42,790 nucleotides of DNA from Clostridia bacterium. GTDB lineage: Bacteria > Bacillota > DULZ01. The translations under genes were made by a program, and so were the position numbers. Below the pieces are notes generated by a model. It saw nothing but the letters and a program-made list of their open reading frames with translations. It did not search any database and was not told the origin of the DNA. Every line of letters starts with the position of its first letter. The stretch's first letter is position 1. Location of the stretch: the NCBI GenBank assembly GCA_012840125.1, contig DULZ01000029.1, positions 1 to 42,790 on the forward strand, given 5' to 3'. Shown piece by piece: positions 1 through 42,790 of this stretch.

Positions 1-603
1 ATGAGTGGTGCAGTATTCTAGTCAGAATGGCCAATTTTGAAGACGGGCCTAAAAATCCGTCAAAGGGCACATCGATGAAGTTCCTGGTGCTGGCTGCCGA
101 TGCCCCGTCGGGGGTTGGTGCTGGGAGTTAAGGGGGATAGGGCGATCTACAAGGGCATGTAGGCGTTGACCCTACCCCCGCGGAGACCCAAGTGCGTGGT
201 TTAACCCACCGGGTTAAGGTACGGCTTGGGATTGAACCTGCAGTTCGGTCGGTCCGGCTGGATGCAGCGTAGCCTGCCTTGAGTGGTATAGGTGGATAAT
301 AGGTAGTCGTACCCAAAGGTTTATGGCCATAAACTTTTGGGTATGCTATTTGAAACCTATACTGCAAAAGAGGCTAGAAATTGGCACATCTGTCGAGGAA
401 AGCTCCTAGACTGTTTACTGTTTCAGTAAGGCTTAGCGGGGATTAAAGTGTGACCTAAGTGGCAATCCGGCCCGGCCGGTGGCAACACGGCCGAGCGACC
501 CTTAAAGGGAAACCGCCAGTACGGCGACGGCTGGTGGGTTGTTGGGAAATCCTGCCGGACCTTAAGGCACAGAGTTTACCCGTTAAGCTACCACTCATGC
601 ATC
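1..603 (+). ncRNA. ole: OLE RNA (ornate large extremophilic RNA), 5' end probably outside the window
   Basis: About 600 bases without a credible protein gene lie directly upstream of an oapA-like gene and dxs. That is the known location of OLE RNA, a roughly 600-nt RNA of Firmicutes that binds the membrane protein OapA and is linked in the literature to membranes, stress and Mg2+ homeostasis. The sequence itself shows much pairing potential. One helix joins 132-142 and 170-179 with a single bulged A and encloses a CTAC/GTAG helix (147-150 with 159-162). A 14-bp hairpin with a GGCC loop spans 311-342, and a GGCCG/CGGCC stem pairs 474-478 with 488-492. The small ORFs inside have no ribosome binding sites. 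The 3' boundary is set only by the next gene, and the 5' end may precede base 1. Identity rests on context, length and structure, not on a covariance search. Confidence 0.82.
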
Positions 604-624
604 ATGAAAAAGGAAGGAACACGC

Positions 625-1215
625 ATGGGTTCTGGGAAAAATATTCCCCAAAGCGCCTTTAAACATGCTTTCCTAATTGGTTTAGGTTCTTTTTTTTTAG
701 CAATTGTATTAAGCCTGGTTTCCCAAAGTCTATTAACAGCCATTAAATCCATTATCCCAGCTTTGATCTTGCTATTGATCATAATATTCTTAGGCATTCT
801 CTTCGACATCATTGGTACAGCAGTCACTAAAGCCAGCACAGGCCCTTTCCATGCGAAAGCGTCCCGGAAAATCGCCGGCGCTAAAGAATCCGTCATGCTG
901 GTCAACCATGCCGACAAGGTAGCAAGTTTCTGTAATGACGTGGTGGGAGATATCAGTGGAACCTTAAGCGGTGCCATAGGAGCGGCCATTGTGCTGCGGT
1001 TGGTGCAGGATGGGTTTGGCGGTTCCGAAGTGCTTTTGAGCACCCTTATGACGGCCTCTATTGCAGGCTTAACCATTGGCGGCAAGGGATTGGGGAAAAA
1101 CTACGCTTTGCGGGAAGCGGAAACGATAATATTTAAAGTAGGCCAAATAATAGCGTTTTTTACGGATAAGCGCTACGGTGTCCAGTACCGGCACGCTCCT
1201 AAAAGGGGGAAATAG
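625..1215 (+). CDS. oapA: OLE RNA-associated membrane protein OapA
   Basis: A membrane protein of 196 residues. Hydrophobic segments lie near residues 6-30 and 32-55, with further hydrophobic stretches around 110-145. A central polar region carries the motif DVVGD, which fits the DxxxD motif I associate with OapA, and the region distantly resembles the DUF21/CNNM membrane domain. Family knowledge: OapA forms a complex with OLE RNA at the cell membrane. ATG 625 is chosen because GGAAGG (612-617) lies 7 bases upstream. An in-frame ATG at 604 has no ribosome binding site and would fall in the RNA's 3' end. dxs follows after 2 bases, so the two are cotranscribed. The pairing with the upstream RNA makes the assignment strong. 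Confidence 0.85.
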
Positions 1216-1217
1216 GA

Positions 1218-3098
1218 ATGCATTTGGAGGACATCAATGATCCGGCACAACTGAAAAGACTGAACCTAGGGCAATTAGAAAGCCTGGCCGAGAAGATCAG
1301 GCAAAAATTGATCACCACCGTGGCGAAAACGGGCGGGCACTTAGCACCCAATTTAGGAGTAGTAGAATTAACCCTGGCTTTACATAGAGTCTTTAACTCT
1401 CCGGTGGACAAGATCATCTGGGATGTAGGGCACCAGTGTTATGTGCATAAGATCCTCACCGGAAGACTATCCCAGTTTGACACTTTACGGCAATACGGGG
1501 GATTAAGCGGTTTTCCCAAGACCAGTGAAAGCCCCCATGATGTTTTCAATACCGGTCACAGTAGCACCTCCATCTCCGCTGCCCTGGGTATGGCTATTGC
1601 CCGTGATCTGCGAGGCGAGAAGCACGAAGTGGTGGCGGTCATAGGTGACGGTGCTCTTACCGGCGGCATGGCTTTTGAAGCCCTCAACCATGCCGGCCAT
1701 TTGGGAACCCATCTGATCATTGTGCTGAATGATAACGAAATGTCCATTGCCAATAATGTGGGAGCTCTCTCATCTTACTTGAGCCGGATCCGCTCCGATC
1801 CCAGGTACTACAAAGGCAAGGAAGAGATTGAGCAGGTTCTAAAACGATTACCTTCCATCGGGCCAAGAGTAGTGAAGATAGCTGAGCGGATCAAGGACAG
1901 CTTAAAATACCTGGTGGTACCGGGCATGCTGTTCGAAGAGTTGGGCTTCACCTACCTGGGCCCCATCGACGGTCATCAAATGGACATCATGATCACGGTA
2001 TTCCAGCAGGCCAAGAGGATTAAAGGCCCCGTCATTGTGCATGTGATTACCAAAAAGGGCAAGGGATACGAACCTGCCGAAAGGAACCCCGATGCGTTTC
2101 ACGGCATTGGTGCTTTTGACATTGATTCGGGCCAAGCGATCCGCAAGAACGGTCCCCCTACATATACGGAAGTGTTCGGCCGGACCCTGGTCCACTTAGC
2201 CCAGCAAGACGCCAAGATCGTTGGCATCACCGCTGCCATGCCTGACGGGACCGGACTGAGTCACCTGGCCAGGGAATTGCCTGACCGCTATTTCGATGTA
2301 GGCATTGCGGAACAACATGGTGTTACCTTGGCAGCCGGTATGGCCATCCAAGGATTTCACCCGGTAGTGGCTATTTACTCCTCTTTTCTGCAAAGAGGCT
2401 TTGACCAGGTACTACATGATGTTTGCATGCAGAACTTGCCGGTGACTTTTGCCCTGGACCGGGCAGGCATTGTAGGGGAGGACGGGGAAACCCACCACGG
2501 GGTATTTGATCTGGCTTATCTCCGCCCCATACCCAATATCATCATCATGGCACCCAAGGATGAGCTGGAGTTGAGCCAAATGCTTTCCACTGCCGTGCAA
2601 TACCCAGGCCCTGCGGCCATTCGCTATCCCCGTGGACAAGGTCAAGGAGTTTCGCTGGAAGAAAACAGGTATCAAGAAATCCCGATCGGTGCCAGCGAAG
2701 TGCTGCTAGAAGGGGATGACCTGGTGCTGTTGTGCTTGGGCCCCGTTGTATATAAGGGATTGGAGGCCGCCCGGCTGCTCAGGGAAAAGGGCATCAGCTG
2801 CACCGTGATCAACGCCCGTTTCGTAAAGCCCCTGGACGAGAAGACGATTATCGCCGCAGTGAAAAGGTGCAAGAGGTTAATTACGGTGGAAGAGCATGTC
2901 CTGGCAGGCGGTTTTGGCAGCGCCATCCGGGAAATGCTTGGTGCTCGTGGCCTGCACGATATCCAAGTCGTCAACCTGGCTTTGCCGGACGCTTTTGTGC
3001 CTCACGGTAATGCCAACCTGCTGCGCGAAAAATACGGCCTTTCCACCGCCGGCATTGTCAAGGCAGTGGAGGAACATTTTTCCGGTCTACTTGCTTAA
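1218..3098 (+). CDS. dxs: 1-deoxy-D-xylulose-5-phosphate synthase
   Basis: A 626-residue protein, the usual length. Dxs condenses pyruvate and glyceraldehyde 3-phosphate into DXP, the first step of the MEP isoprenoid pathway and a source of thiamine and pyridoxal precursors; it acts in the cytoplasm. The thiamine-diphosphate motif GDGALTGG and the following EALNHAG are near residues 143-160, and the transketolase pyrimidine-binding domain contains GIAEQHGV near residue 364. A transketolase C-terminal domain ends the protein. An AGGGGG ribosome binding site precedes ATG 1218, and the gene is nearly fused to oapA. A strong terminator overlaps its stop codon. In many Firmicutes ispA precedes OLE and dxs follows, so this is probably the end of an isoprenoid operon. 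Confidence 0.97.
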
Positions 3099-4909: not shown

Positions 4910-5495
4910 ATTATTCCGGGATCCTGTCTTTATTTCCCATTGGTGGTTAGAAGAATACCTGAAACCCGGGATGGTTGTTGTGGATGCTACGGCAGGCAAC
5001 GGTCATGACACTTTGTTTTTGGCCCGGAAAGTGGGGCCGGAGGGAAAAGTATTTGCCTTTGACATCCAGTCGGCAGCCTTAGAAGCAACCAGTCAACTCC
5101 TCCGGCAGCATAACGTCGCTGACAGGGTGGAATTGATCGCGGCGGGGCATGAACGGTTGCGGGATTATGTGCACCAATCCATTCATGCCATGGTTTTTAA
5201 TCTAGGCTATCTACCGGGAGGGGACAAGACGATTATCACCCGCCCGGAAACCACCCTTCAAGCCCTCAAAGGAGGCATGGAACTGCTGGTGCCGGGGGGC
5301 TTCATTGTGCTGACGGTGTATACGGGGCATCCCGGGGGATTGGAGGAATGGGAAAGTCTCAAAGAGTATATCCTCCGGCTGCCGAGGGATCAATGGGACA
5401 TAGTCCGGCTTACCTTTCTCAATCGCTCCCCGTCGGCCCCTTTTAATATAGGCATCCAAAAGATTGGGGAACATGCAGGTGGTGATGTTTGTTGA
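4902..5495 (+). CDS. mnmM: MnmM/YtqB-like SAM-dependent tRNA methyltransferase
   Basis: A 197-residue class I methyltransferase. The SAM motif VVDATAGNGHDT is near residue 27, the acidic motif II (VFAFDIQ) near residue 55, and FNLGYLPGG near residue 100 occupies the catalytic-loop position. This pattern matches the YtqB (rRNA_methylase) family. Family knowledge: YtqB, renamed MnmM, carries out the final methylation of 5-aminomethyl-2-thiouridine in the tRNA wobble position of Firmicutes. It starts with GTG 4902 inside the end of nadK and overlaps argR, so it is translationally coupled on both sides. The family is clear; the tRNA substrate is inferred from the family. Confidence 0.82.
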   Translation: MTRLFRDPVFISHWWLEEYLKPGMVVVDATAGNGHDTLFLARKVGPEGKVFAFDIQSAALEATSQLLRQHNVADRVELIAAGHERLRDYVHQSIHAMVFNLGYLPGGDKTIITRPETTLQALKGGMELLVPGGFIVLTVYTGHPGGLEEWESLKEYILRLPRDQWDIVRLTFLNRSPSAPFNIGIQKIGEHAGGDVC

Positions 5496-5950
5496 AGGCC
5501 GCCAGACAACGGAAAATTATTGACATCATCAATAAACAAGTGATCTGCACCCAGGAAGAACTGGTCAAAGCCCTGGAAAAAGAAGGTTATAAAGTAACCC
5601 AGGCAACCATATCACGGGATATTAAAGAATTAGGGCTGGTCAAAGTCCCGAACAACGAAAACAGCCATCTTTACCAGTATGCCCTGCCGGCGGAAACGCG
5701 CACCTCTAATCCTTTGGCCAGGTTACATAAAGTCTTCCGGGATTCCGTGGTGAAAGTAGATTACAGCGAGAACATTATCGTCATTCGCACCCTCACAGGG
5801 AACGCCCATGCGGTAGCAGCCTGCTTGGATTACATGGAGTGGGAGGAAGTACTCGGCACTGTCGCCGGCGATGATACCATCATCGTCATTGTTAAACCAA
5901 AAGGGGCAGTGAAAAAAGTATATGAAATGCTGGTAAATCTACTGGAATAG
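5489..5950 (+). CDS. argR: Arginine repressor ArgR/AhrC
   Basis: A 153-residue protein of typical length. The N-terminal winged helix contains the recognition motif TQATISRDIKELGL near residue 38. The C-terminal domain, which forms hexamers and binds arginine, carries GTVAGDDTIIVI near residue 122. ArgR represses arginine biosynthesis and can activate catabolism when arginine is abundant. The start is one of two adjacent TTG codons (5489 or 5492) overlapping the end of mnmM. The place next to recN matches ahrC in Bacillus. No ARG box was confirmed nearby. Confidence 0.95.
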   Translation: MLKAARQRKIIDIINKQVICTQEELVKALEKEGYKVTQATISRDIKELGLVKVPNNENSHLYQYALPAETRTSNPLARLHKVFRDSVVKVDYSENIIVIRTLTGNAHAVAACLDYMEWEEVLGTVAGDDTIIVIVKPKGAVKKVYEMLVNLLE

Positions 5951-39367: not shown

Positions 39368-40641
39368 GTTCCGCACCAATCCTGGTCCTAGGAGGCGGCG
39401 CGGCAGGCATCTTTGCCGCCATTGGCGCCGCCGAAATGGGAGCTCCGGTAGTCATCTTGGAAAAAAAGCACAGCTTGGGACTTAAGCTTCTTATGACGGG
39501 AAACGGGCGCTGCAATTTAACCAACACGGCTCCCCTGGACCTGTTTATTCAACAGTTTGCGGAACACGGCCCTTTTCTCTACAGCGCATTAAACAATTTA
39601 TCCAATATGGATTTGATGAACTTTTTTGCCGAACTGGGAGTAGAGCTGAAGGAGGAGCGGGGAGGACGTGTCTTCCCCGTTTCTGATCGCTCCAAGGATG
39701 TGCTGCATGCTTTAACCGGCTACCTGCATCACCTCAAGGTGCAAGTCAAGTTGAACACCAGAGTAGCCGGCATCAGTACCGGGCAAAACAGGATTAACGG
39801 TGTCTTTACTGAACAAGGGTTCATGCCCGCTGGAGCAGTTATTCTGGCCACCGGTGGGTTATCGTATCCCCGTACCGGCTCAACCGGAGACGGCTATCAA
39901 TGGGCCCGCGAGTTGGGACATACTGTTACACCTCTGCGGCCTTCCCTGGTGCCTTTGGAAACCGTAGAAGATTGGGTGAAAGAACTAAGGGGTCTATCTT
40001 TGCAACACGTCCAGGTGACAGCATGGAGCAACCACCGGAAAGTGGGAGAACAGCGGGGCGAGATGCTGTTCACCCACTTCGGTGTATCGGGACCGGCCAT
40101 CCTTAATTTAAGCAGGAACGTTGTGAGAGCCCTGGCAAACGGCCCGGTTAAGGTTCTTATTAACTTACGGCCGGGGATTGACCGGGAAACCCAGCATAAG
40201 CAGTTGAGCGCCGGTTTTCAAAGACATGCAGCCAAGCACTTGAAAAATGCTCTGGTGGACCTGCTGCCCCAGAGACTGATCAAGACCGTCACCGCCTACA
40301 GTAACCTGCCGGCGGAAAAACCGGTGCACCAGTTGACCAGAATGGAGCGTCAACGACTGTGCGAGACACTGCAGGGCCTACCTCTCACCATCAGCCAAGC
40401 CCGTCCCATCGAAGAAGCCATGGTTACCTCCGGGGGAATAAACCTGAAAGAAGTTAATCCCAAGACCATGGCTTCCAAGCTCATCGCCAATCTTTACTTT
40501 GCCGGTGAAATCCTCGATATTGACGGGTTCACCGGAGGTTTTAATCTGCAAGCTGCTTTTTCTACCGGCTATCTAGCCGGTCAATCGGCAGCTGTCTCCA
40601 TGAACAAAACAAGGGAAGGTGGACCAAATGCAAGGCAGTAA
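39364..40641 (+). CDS. HI0933/YtfP-family NAD(P)/FAD-dependent oxidoreductase
   Basis: A 425-residue flavoprotein. The dinucleotide-binding motif [17 protein letters not shown] is near residue 10, followed by [15 protein letters not shown] near residue 45, the family hallmark. A C-terminal flavin-binding signature is [19 protein letters not shown] near residue 375. The physiological substrate of this family is unclear; a relative (BaiN) acts in bile acid metabolism, and ordinary members may be housekeeping oxidoreductases. It starts in the ilvC stop (ATGA) and its 3' end overlaps hutP, so all are coupled. Confidence 0.88.
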
Positions 40642-41038
40642 ACAAGCGGCGCGGGCTGCCATCCAGATGGCCCTGACGGATTCCCGGGAAGAGGAAAACC
40701 AGTTGAAAAAAACTCTCAGCCGGCAGGGCATTAAAGCAGCCGCAGTGGATTTTGGGGGCGAATTCTTGCCTTCAGCCTCGAAAGTGGTGGAAAGGGCCAT
40801 TGTAGCGGCGAAACGGGAAGGTATTATCAAAGATACCCATGCCGATGAAGGAGCTATCGCCGGTGCCACCAGGGAGGCCTTATCGCAACTCATGCCTAAG
40901 GCATTGGGTTTCAATGTAGGGGGTAAAATAGGCATGGCCCGCATCGATGATCACGTCAGCGTGGCGGTCTTTTTCGGCATTGGGCTGGTTCATCTCGATG
41001 AAGTGGCCATTGGACTGGGGCACCGGGCGGTACCGTAA
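40628..41038 (+). CDS. HutP-family RNA-binding protein, clostridial type
   Basis: A 136-residue protein resembling HutP, the histidine-dependent antiterminator of the Bacillus hut operon. The match covers KVVERAIVAAKREGIIKDTH near residue 52, GATREALSQLMPKALGFNVGG near 79 (short form GATREALSQLMPK), and the C-terminal DHVSVAVFFGIGLVHLDEVA with AIGLGHRAV. In a hand alignment with remembered B. subtilis HutP, the three histidines that bind Mg2+/histidine (73, 77, 138) fall on Gly, Gly and Glu here. So ligand use probably differs. No hut genes are near; aroH- and aroF-like genes follow. ATG 40628 lies 5 bases after AGGTGG. Confidence 0.8.
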   Translation: MQGSKQAARAAIQMALTDSREEENQLKKTLSRQGIKAAAVDFGGEFLPSASKVVERAIVAAKREGIIKDTHADEGAIAGATREALSQLMPKALGFNVGGKIGMARIDDHVSVAVFFGIGLVHLDEVAIGLGHRAVP

Positions 41039-41049
41039 GGAGGATCCCC

Positions 41050-41913
41050 ATGCAGCATCAAAACATTCGAGCCATTAGAGGAGCAACTTCTGTTTCCGCC
41101 AACACACCGGAAGCTATCTGGAAAGCTACTCGGGAATTGCTGCTGGCCGTTGTCGAAGCCAACGGTTTAGCAGTGGAAGATATCGTCAGTATTATCTTTA
41201 CGGCTTCCAGGGATCTCAACGCCGCATTTCCTGCAGCCGCTGCCCGACAACTGGGATGGGTTCACGTACCCCTGTTAGATGTGCAGCAATTTGAAGCACC
41301 GGACTTGCCCAGAACGCTGCGTATTCTCGTCCACGCCTATACTCCTTTGCGCCCAACGGAGATTCAACACATATACCTGGGGGAAGCCCAGCGCTTGCGA
41401 CCCGATTTGGTGAAAAAGATAGAGACACGCAAGCAAACGAGAATCCTGGTTTCCGGTATCACCTGCTGGCAGGAGGCCCTTCTGGCTATTGAGAAGGGAG
41501 CTCATGCTTTAGGTTTTGTTTTAGAGCCTAAGAGCCACCCTTATGTTAACCCGGAACATGCCAGGGAAATCATTCAAAAACTGCCTCCTTTTGTGGGCAC
41601 AGTCGGCATCTTCCAAGACACGCCCAGGTATGTTATCCAAGAGCTTTCCACCTTTTGCCGGTTGGATTACTTGCTGTTCATGGGGGATGAATCTCCTAAA
41701 GACTGTCATGGTTATGTCCAACCGGTCATTAAGAAACTTGCTAACTTGCAAAATTACCGTGATTACCGGTCGGTTACCGCTTTCTTGGTACCGAGGGAAG
41801 AAATAGGAGCGGCAGGGCATGACGGGCCGTATTTAATCTGCCCCGGTCACTCTCCCTGGGAGCGGGTGCCGGGTGTTGACGGGCTGCTGGTTCAACTGGA
41901 AGACATCCTTTAA
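41050..41913 (+). CDS. AroH-type chorismate mutase domain fused to a truncated TrpF-like domain
   Basis: A 287-residue two-domain protein. Residues 1-127 align throughout with AroH chorismate mutase (IRAIRGATSV; AFPAAAARQLGW; IYLGEAQRLRPDL). Of the key residues of B. subtilis AroH, Arg7, Phe57, Arg63, Arg90 and Tyr108 have counterparts (R10, F60, R66, R91, Y109), but Glu78 falls on Gln80 and Cys75 on Asp77. Residues 131-235 resemble phosphoribosylanthranilate isomerase (SGITCWQEALLAIEKGAHAL, GFVLEPKSHPYVNPEHA, LPPFVGTVGIFQD). Yet the catalytic Cys is Ser135, the Arg of PKSxRY is Pro164, and the catalytic Asp region is missing because the domain is only about 150 residues. AAGGAGG precedes ATG 41050. 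It lies between hutP-like and aroF. Confidence 0.8.
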   Translation: MQHQNIRAIRGATSVSANTPEAIWKATRELLLAVVEANGLAVEDIVSIIFTASRDLNAAFPAAAARQLGWVHVPLLDVQQFEAPDLPRTLRILVHAYTPLRPTEIQHIYLGEAQRLRPDLVKKIETRKQTRILVSGITCWQEALLAIEKGAHALGFVLEPKSHPYVNPEHAREIIQKLPPFVGTVGIFQDTPRYVIQELSTFCRLDYLLFMGDESPKDCHGYVQPVIKKLANLQNYRDYRSVTAFLVPREEIGAAGHDGPYLICPGHSPWERVPGVDGLLVQLEDIL

Positions 41914-41961: not shown

Positions 41962-42022
41962 AAGGACGGTAGGAAGGCAGGAAAGTGGTAAGACACTCTG
42001 TCACAGGTCAGAGTGGCTTTTT
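41962..42022 (+). promoter_or_regulatory. aroF leader: NAG-rich tract followed by a terminator hairpin
   Basis: Purine-rich sequence at 41962-41992 contains NAG triplets at 41962, 41970, 41974, 41978, 41983 and 41990. Directly after it, a perfect 7-bp stem (41994-42000 with 42009-42015) with an 8-base loop is followed by GC and five T. NAG repeats next to a terminator are what HutP recognises in B. subtilis. A second 7-bp hairpin (42036-42042 with 42046-42052) lies just before the aroF ribosome binding site. The terminator is clear; the protein-binding role is a guess. Confidence 0.55.
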
Positions 42023-42080
42023 GTATTTGCCGGTCCCCGGTTGGGAACCGGGATCAGTCAAATAAGGAGGATGGTTGGAT

Positions 42081-42790
42081 ATGATCATTGTCATGGAACA
42101 TAAAGCTGCCGAGCAGGACATTCAGGCCGTCATGGACAAACTGTCGCAGGCCGGCTTTCAACTGCACCTTTCACAAGGCGTGTCCCGCACCATTATCGGT
42201 GTTATCGGAGCGAATACCAAGGAAAGAGTAACCGCTATGGCCGTGGAGGCCATGCCCGGTGTGGAAAAAGTGGTGCCAATTCTCCACCCGTTCAAACTAG
42301 CCGGCCGGGATTTTAAGCCGGAACCGACCCAAGTGCAAGTCGGGGACCTTAGCATCGGTGGTAAAGGTGTGCATGTCATGGCCGGTCCTTGCGCCGTAGA
42401 ATGCGAGGAACAGCTCATGCAGGTGGCTCGCCTGGTAAAGGAAGCGGGAGCAACGATCCTGCGCGGCGGAGCCTATAAACCTAGGACTTCGCCTTACTCA
42501 TTTCAAGGATTGGGTGAAGAGGGACTTAAACTGCTGGCCCAAGCTCGCGAAGCCACAGGGTTGAAAATTGTCACGGAAGTAACGGCGGTGGAGCATTTGC
42601 CGTTAGTTATTGAATACGCTGATATCCTGCAGGTAGGGGCTCGCAATATGCAGAACTTTCATCTCCTCAAAGAGATTGGCAAAACCGGCAAGCCTGTGCT
42701 GCTAAAACGAGGCCCGTGTGCCACCTTTGAAGAATGGATCTTGGCCGCGGAATACATTATGGCCGAAGGTAACTTCAATGTCATCTTTTG
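42081..42790 (+). CDS. aroF: 3-deoxy-7-phosphoheptulonate synthase (DAHP synthase), 3' end cut by the window
   Basis: At least 236 residues of a type I-beta DAHP synthase, the first enzyme of the shikimate pathway; it condenses phosphoenolpyruvate with erythrose 4-phosphate. The N-terminal ferredoxin-like domain (about residues 1-70; [14 protein letters not shown]) is typical of AroF with ACT-like regulatory extension. The barrel opens with [15 protein letters not shown] near residue 94, then [20 protein letters not shown] (substrate loop, 20 residues), and ends the window in [25 protein letters not shown] lies 10 bases before ATG 42081. A hairpin-bearing leader of about 165 bases precedes it. 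Confidence 0.95.

Follow-up and report, generated by a model that had tools for sequence, protein, structure and literature searches.

The open reading frame at 41050-41913 on the + strand of the window (the whole stretch of 42,790 nucleotides analysed here, contig DULZ01000029.1 of a Clostridia bacterium) was confirmed, and its 287-aa product was found to join an AroH-type chorismate mutase (CM_1) with a TrpF-like domain. Taken as a whole, the data are best explained, at somewhat better than even probability, by an active AroH in which the catalytic charge has been relocated and by a TrpF-derived domain left from a trp operon, which would now act as a non-catalytic partner of AroH. This domain belongs to a pseudoenzyme family, apparently undescribed, which we call pTrpF. 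The features of the locus were as follows:

40619-41038, + strand: HutP-family protein of 139 aa (PF09021, E 5e-50), which opens the aro cluster and lies 11 bases upstream of the fusion gene.
41050-41913, + strand: aroH-pTrpF fusion gene, 287 aa; two separate adjacent genes in the relatives G001 and G002.
41065-41409, + strand: AroH-type chorismate mutase domain, residues 6-120 (PF07736, E 3e-40; TIGR01796 above cut-off; matches 1ode, 1xho and 1com).
41278-41289, + strand: D-V-Q-Q segment, with Asp at the Cys75 position (41278-41280) and Gln at the Glu78 position (41287-41289); co-variation in 158 AroH.
41410-41436, + strand: linker, which by alignment stands where the relatives' two genes are separated by a stop codon, a Shine-Dalgarno sequence and a start codon, and replaces them.
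41437-41910, + strand: pTrpF domain, residues 130-287, TrpF-derived with the TrpF catalytic residues gone; the N-terminal half (beta1-beta4) is conserved, whereas the C-terminal half is shortened and changes fast.
41452-41454, + strand: Ser (S135) at the site of the TrpF catalytic Cys, which is Cys in 44 of 44 canonical TrpF.
41994-42015, + strand: terminator-like hairpin followed by a T tract (42016-42025), in the gap that separates the fusion gene from aroF; consensus match only.
42078-42790, + strand: aroF, DAHP synthase with a ferredoxin-like regulatory domain (PF00793 and PF18152), cut by the contig end.

Both domains reported in the preliminary description were recovered by Pfam within this frame. 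The AroH part scored 137.6 bits with CM_1 (cut-off 27) and 123.5 bits with CM_mono_aroH (cut-off 82), covering profile positions 1-116 and 1-117, respectively, in agreement with the claim that it spans the whole fold, while residues 135-236 matched PRAI (PF00697, TrpF) with an E value of 4e-7, over the gathering score. The solved structures matching the fusion were AroH (1ode, 1xho, 1com) and Thermotoga TrpF (1lbm). The gene indeed sits before aroF, in the slot hutP-aroH-[pTrpF]-aroF of an aromatic operon. The gap between pTrpF and aroF is 9-27 bases in relatives (L013, L203), whereas in the window it carries the terminator-like hairpin; four terminator-like consensus matches were found in the region against 3.1 expected. 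HutP is a histidine-utilisation antiterminator. A HutP-family gene was seen near aroH, usually just upstream, in 85 of 158 Bacillota AroH loci, a pattern suggestive of a HutP branch linked to the aromatic pathway. At the other end of the window, positions 1-610 (+) hold an OLE (Ornate Large Extremophilic) RNA (Rfam RF01071, 557 bits) that the contig end truncates on its 5′ side; a small membrane-protein ORF (604-1215) and then dxs come next.

Two further genomes of the class of the window genome (G000) were available for comparison. In one of them (G001, contig JAAZDD010000072.1 of Clostridia bacterium isolate AS09scLD_108; locus L013), aroH (4986..5369) and the TrpF-like gene (5377..5916) are separate and adjacent, and the same arrangement was found in the other (G002). 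Alignment of the junction DNA revealed that the AAGGAG, the stop TGA and the ATG lying between the relatives' genes are all replaced in the window. Since all three of these elements are lost relative to two relatives, a single-base sequencing or assembly error is unlikely to be the source, and the fusion is probably real and confined to the window genome. A search for the two-domain architecture returned the fusion from this one genome, so that a conserved fused architecture was rejected; what is conserved among the relatives compared is the gene pair aroH-pTrpF. Other AroH frames of unusual length were also noted: a 414-aa frame (L200 417..1658, G250) contains AroH of the D75/Q78 type together with cytidylate kinase (cmk), and AroH lies in longer frames in L103 (G215; 686..2299, 610 aa) and L171 (G259; 497..1381, 295 aa), which are possible fusions or just open frames.

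The TrpF half was then placed in its family with a profile (A1) built from eight pTrpF members and run over 399 Bacillota genomes. The eight members fall in four classes (three of three genomes in family f1, three of three in f39, one of three in f35 and one of three in f34); pTrpF is thus rare and missing from most AroH operons. They scored 163-231 bits over most of the profile, whereas canonical TrpF did not exceed 152 bits and matched mainly within the first 105 positions. TrpF-like genes lie directly 3′ of aroH in G113, G040, G081 and G117; in G076 a trpG gene intervenes. Homology to PF00697 (PRAI) was evident in all eight, and hhalign aligned pTrpF with TrpF at a probability of 100 over 154 columns (template 3-178 of 208), reaching the TrpF C-terminus; because the alignment still spans so far, the barrel is shrunken, not cut. 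A simple truncation of TrpF was accordingly rejected, the C-terminal half being shortened but traceable. The AF2 models were of low confidence (pLDDT 46-47), owing to the few sequences in the alignment, with beta1-alpha1 to beta4 clear and little beyond. With the low-confidence model of the stand-alone pTrpF of L013, Foldseek nevertheless ranked T. maritima TrpF first (E 5e-7, about 93 columns). Our literature search found no paper on pTrpF or on the hutP-aroH pair, in line with the earlier statement that no described AroH-TrpF fusion was known. A search of viral contigs added one TrpF, and no usable pattern for that search came from the pTrpF alignment; a full-length trpF with the catalytic Cys was seen near an integrase-like gene on an IMG/VR contig (L263 1459..2124).

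Comparison of the eight pTrpF with 44 canonical TrpF indicated how far the catalytic apparatus has been lost. The catalytic Cys is replaced in all eight (Ser in seven, Thr in one), as is the Gln of the beta4 motif; the Lys preceding the catalytic Cys is lost in seven of eight, the invariant Arg and the catalytic Asp each in six of eight (Asp being kept in two), and neither of the phosphate-binding motifs of beta7/beta8 (GG and DVSSGVE) is intact in any member. By every residue tested, a non-catalytic pTrpF, in the sense of TrpF activity, is supported. The change of Cys to Ser reported for the window protein was thereby verified and extended to the family as loss of the Cys. The change of Arg to Pro stood for the window protein, but its two nearest relatives keep the Arg. 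The statement that the part with the catalytic Asp is lacking holds only in part, since the protein does have a C-terminal part, though a shortened one, and Pro occupies the Asp position; the pTrpF of G001 and G002 retain both Arg and Asp, and the window has Pro at both positions. The window genome also encodes, beside trp genes on contig C4, a genuine TrpF in which the Cys, the Arg and the Asp are all present.

The gene order points to the origin of pTrpF. It runs hutP-aroH-pTrpF-aroF, followed by other aromatic genes and, where the contig extends, by cmk and plsC, and all eight pTrpF occupy the slot between aroH and aroF. In six sampled genomes of other families (G276, G045, G112, G231, G097 and G051) the same space holds trpE-G-D-C-F-B-A, and in G285 an identical order was seen up to trpF, where the fetched stretch ends. 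Since the slot holds a complete trp operon in these six genomes, pTrpF is, judged by gene order, the remaining trpF of an aro-trp supraoperon. B. subtilis offers a known case of a trp operon inserted behind aroH (PMC1173090). In G076 a trpG-like amidotransferase gene (L247 4583..5152) lies between aroH and pTrpF, which looks like a partly reduced trp block with trpG as a second survivor. In trees the pTrpF sequences fell among or beside the supraoperon-type TrpF, apart from the genuine TrpF of the window genome, and the N-terminal half of pTrpF is 39% identical to that TrpF as against 58% to the canonical TrpF of G004; a duplicate of the genome's own TrpF was therefore not supported. A single origin of pTrpF was neither rejected (p-AU 0.40) nor established, in a tree weakened by long branches. 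Genuine TrpF was detected in G000, G001, G113 and G076; none was found at the thresholds used in G002 or in the f39 genomes. The latter (G040, G081 and G117; L249-L251) are near-complete genomes that carry pTrpF and no other TrpF at E <= 1e-10; they may be tryptophan auxotrophs or rely on a different isomerase.

Catalysis has been lost in pTrpF and selection retained, as indicated by the residue comparison, substitution counts and half-wise identities. Between the window pTrpF and its relatives, synonymous sites are saturated and the nonsynonymous difference is 0.24-0.30. When G000 was compared with G001, the N-terminal halves were 71% identical for pTrpF and 60% for genuine TrpF, and the C-terminal halves 36% and 61%, respectively. 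Conservation of the N-terminal half and not of the C-terminal half places the constraint on the half-barrel surface and not on the active-site loops of the second half; on these counts purifying selection is keeping pTrpF, mainly its beta1-beta4 half. These data bear directly on the reading of pTrpF as a functionless, decaying relic of the trp operon between aroH and aroF, with the fusion as a neutral accident. Such a relic would account for the free variation of the C-terminal half (23-41% identity), the loss of the TrpF motifs and the absence of a pTrpF-type match from two of three f35 and two of three f34 genomes. However, the reading frame is open in all eight genomes across four classes, the protein persists at saturated synonymous sites, and its N-terminal half is conserved better than that of working TrpF; we consider a mere relic unlikely.

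The AroH half had been described as decayed, with Gln for Glu78 and Asp for Cys75. Both replacements were verified: the carboxylate of Glu78 is absent, Gln (Q80, codon 41287-41289) being found there, and Asp (D77, codon 41278-41280) occupies the Cys75 position. In B. subtilis AroH, Glu78 hydrogen-bonds the C4-OH of the substrate and Cys75 acts via its amide (PMC10782440). Among 158 Bacillota AroH, the 75/78 pairs were C/E (124), D/Q (15), D/E (11), G/E (5) and one each of D/H, N/E and C/D; residue 78 was non-acidic exclusively together with Asp75 (16 of 16; Fisher 4e-15, relatedness ignored). Arg63 and Arg116 are invariant in this set and Arg90 and Tyr108 nearly so, and the window protein retains R7, F57, R63, R90, Y108 and R116. 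On the weakly resolved AroH tree, about five changes are needed at site 78 and about ten at site 75, and family f68 contains C/E, G/E, D/E and D/Q forms together. Given the strict pairing of a non-acidic 78 with Asp75, relocation of the catalytic carboxylate from 78 to 75 is the simplest reading, and the D/E class looks like an intermediate form; the charge in AroH seems to have been shifted repeatedly during evolution, on each occasion with Asp at 75.

An AroQ-type mutase (CM_2, PF01817) was not detected above cut-off in G000, G001 or G002, whereas 13 of 14 control genomes have one. TyrA is present in all three; in G001 and G002, whose contigs reach that far, pheA was found downstream. With no AroQ above cut-off, TyrA present and the other catalytic residues intact, the window AroH, a variant of AroH chorismate mutase by its sequence, is most likely the working chorismate mutase of the cell. 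A decayed or sensor-only AroH was accordingly dropped as the leading reading after the survey and the AroQ search, and of the "two decayed enzymes" proposed earlier the description fits the TrpF half, non-catalytic by its residues, and not the AroH half. The contrary reading, a pseudo-mutase with another chorismate mutase serving the cell, draws on the replacement by Gln of a residue catalytically important in B. subtilis AroH (PMC10782440); it is quite improbable given that a non-acidic 78 is invariably paired with D75, that three TyrA-bearing genomes lack an AroQ above cut-off and that the remaining active-site residues are unchanged.

The possibility that pTrpF now catalyses a different reaction of the aromatic pathway was also weighed. 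A barrel-derived fold under selection beside biosynthetic genes, with Arg and Asp kept at two TrpF positions in G001 and G002, would be compatible with it; but the former active site has no polar residue common to all eight members except Ser/Thr at the Cys site, the phosphate-binding motifs are gone and the second barrel half is not conserved, which makes a new activity very improbable. Least probable of the readings considered is the sensor role proposed earlier, in which the fusion would detect PRA or CdRP, intermediates of the tryptophan branch, and tune the use of chorismate: descent from TrpF and the position at the chorismate branch point fit it, but the invariant substrate and phosphate contacts (Lys, Arg, Gln, GG and DVSSGVE) are lost or not shared, and with the ligand contacts gone such sensing becomes less likely.

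The preferred reading, an active AroH with a non-catalytic partner, would run as follows. The ancestral supraoperon would have been hutP-aroH-trpEGDCFBA-aroF-pheA-tyrA-aroA; once tryptophan genes were supplied elsewhere, trpF would have stayed between aroH and aroF and lost catalysis. The AroH carboxylate would have moved from 78 to 75, the mutase presumably staying active, and pTrpF may bind AroH, and possibly also the DAHP synthase encoded next, as a non-catalytic subunit, complex and regulation alike being postulated. In the window genome the two proteins would have become one chain, with pTrpF placed on the C-terminal tail of AroH by the active site. In AroH the active site is closed off by the C-terminal tail, and a domain joined to that end could gate it. 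A physical link between AroH and pTrpF is favoured by the fusion in the window genome and by the overlap of the aroH stop with the pTrpF start as ATGA in three f39 genomes, which points to translational coupling; the strict adjacency of the two genes and the selection on one half of pTrpF lend the partner reading further indirect support.

That pTrpF is a regulatory or scaffolding subunit of AroH, perhaps also of DAHP synthase, a retired tryptophan-branch enzyme controlling the commitment of chorismate to Phe/Tyr, is a tentative proposal to which we give somewhat less than an even chance. Schemes of the partner type exist, since the chorismate mutase MtCM is activated by its partner enzyme DAHP synthase (PMC7762937), and in plants a dead TSB paralogue activates TSA (PMC12727527). 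Against it, the adjacency of AroH and pTrpF could be mere inheritance of the slot, the fusion occurs in one genome, and pTrpF in eight of 399.

If pTrpF does regulate AroH, this would be a new route for one aromatic branch to influence another. Apart from that, pTrpF is an apparently undescribed pseudoenzyme family within one of the best-studied bacterial pathways, with an origin traced to a gene left after loss of a trp operon. Nature has, with the D75/Q78 exchange, set up a test of the electrostatic role of Glu78, which has long been debated; this residue and position 75 were reportedly probed together by selection in a study cited in PMC12329711 (Kast et al. 1996, J Am Chem Soc 118:3069). 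Under the labels chorismate mutase or TrpF, which annotation pipelines will give to proteins of this sort, both the charge relocation and the pseudoenzyme will be overlooked.

When compared with known systems, the window protein resembles type I AroH (PF07736; B. subtilis, Thermus) in the whole fold, in the positions of Arg7, Phe57, Arg63, Arg90, Tyr108 and Arg116 and in lying next to aromatic genes, but differs in having Asp75/Gln78 for Cys75/Glu78 and a C-terminal pTrpF fusion. Its pTrpF is homologous to phosphoribosylanthranilate isomerase (TrpF, PF00697), the beta1-beta4 half being about 58% identical to the TrpF of G004; unlike that enzyme, it is without the catalytic Cys and Asp, the invariant Arg and the phosphate loops, has a shortened C-terminal half and sits between aroH and aroF, not in a trp operon. 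In the B. subtilis aro-trp supraoperon (PMC1173090), too, trp genes follow aroH immediately and precede tyrA and the EPSP synthase gene, whereas the block here has shrunk to a single non-catalytic trpF, flanked by hutP on the upstream side and by the gene for DAHP synthase on the downstream side. The plant TSB-like pseudoenzyme (PMC12727527) is similarly a dead tryptophan-branch paralogue kept by selection; however, it acts on its own ancestral partner, and pTrpF would act on an enzyme of another branch.
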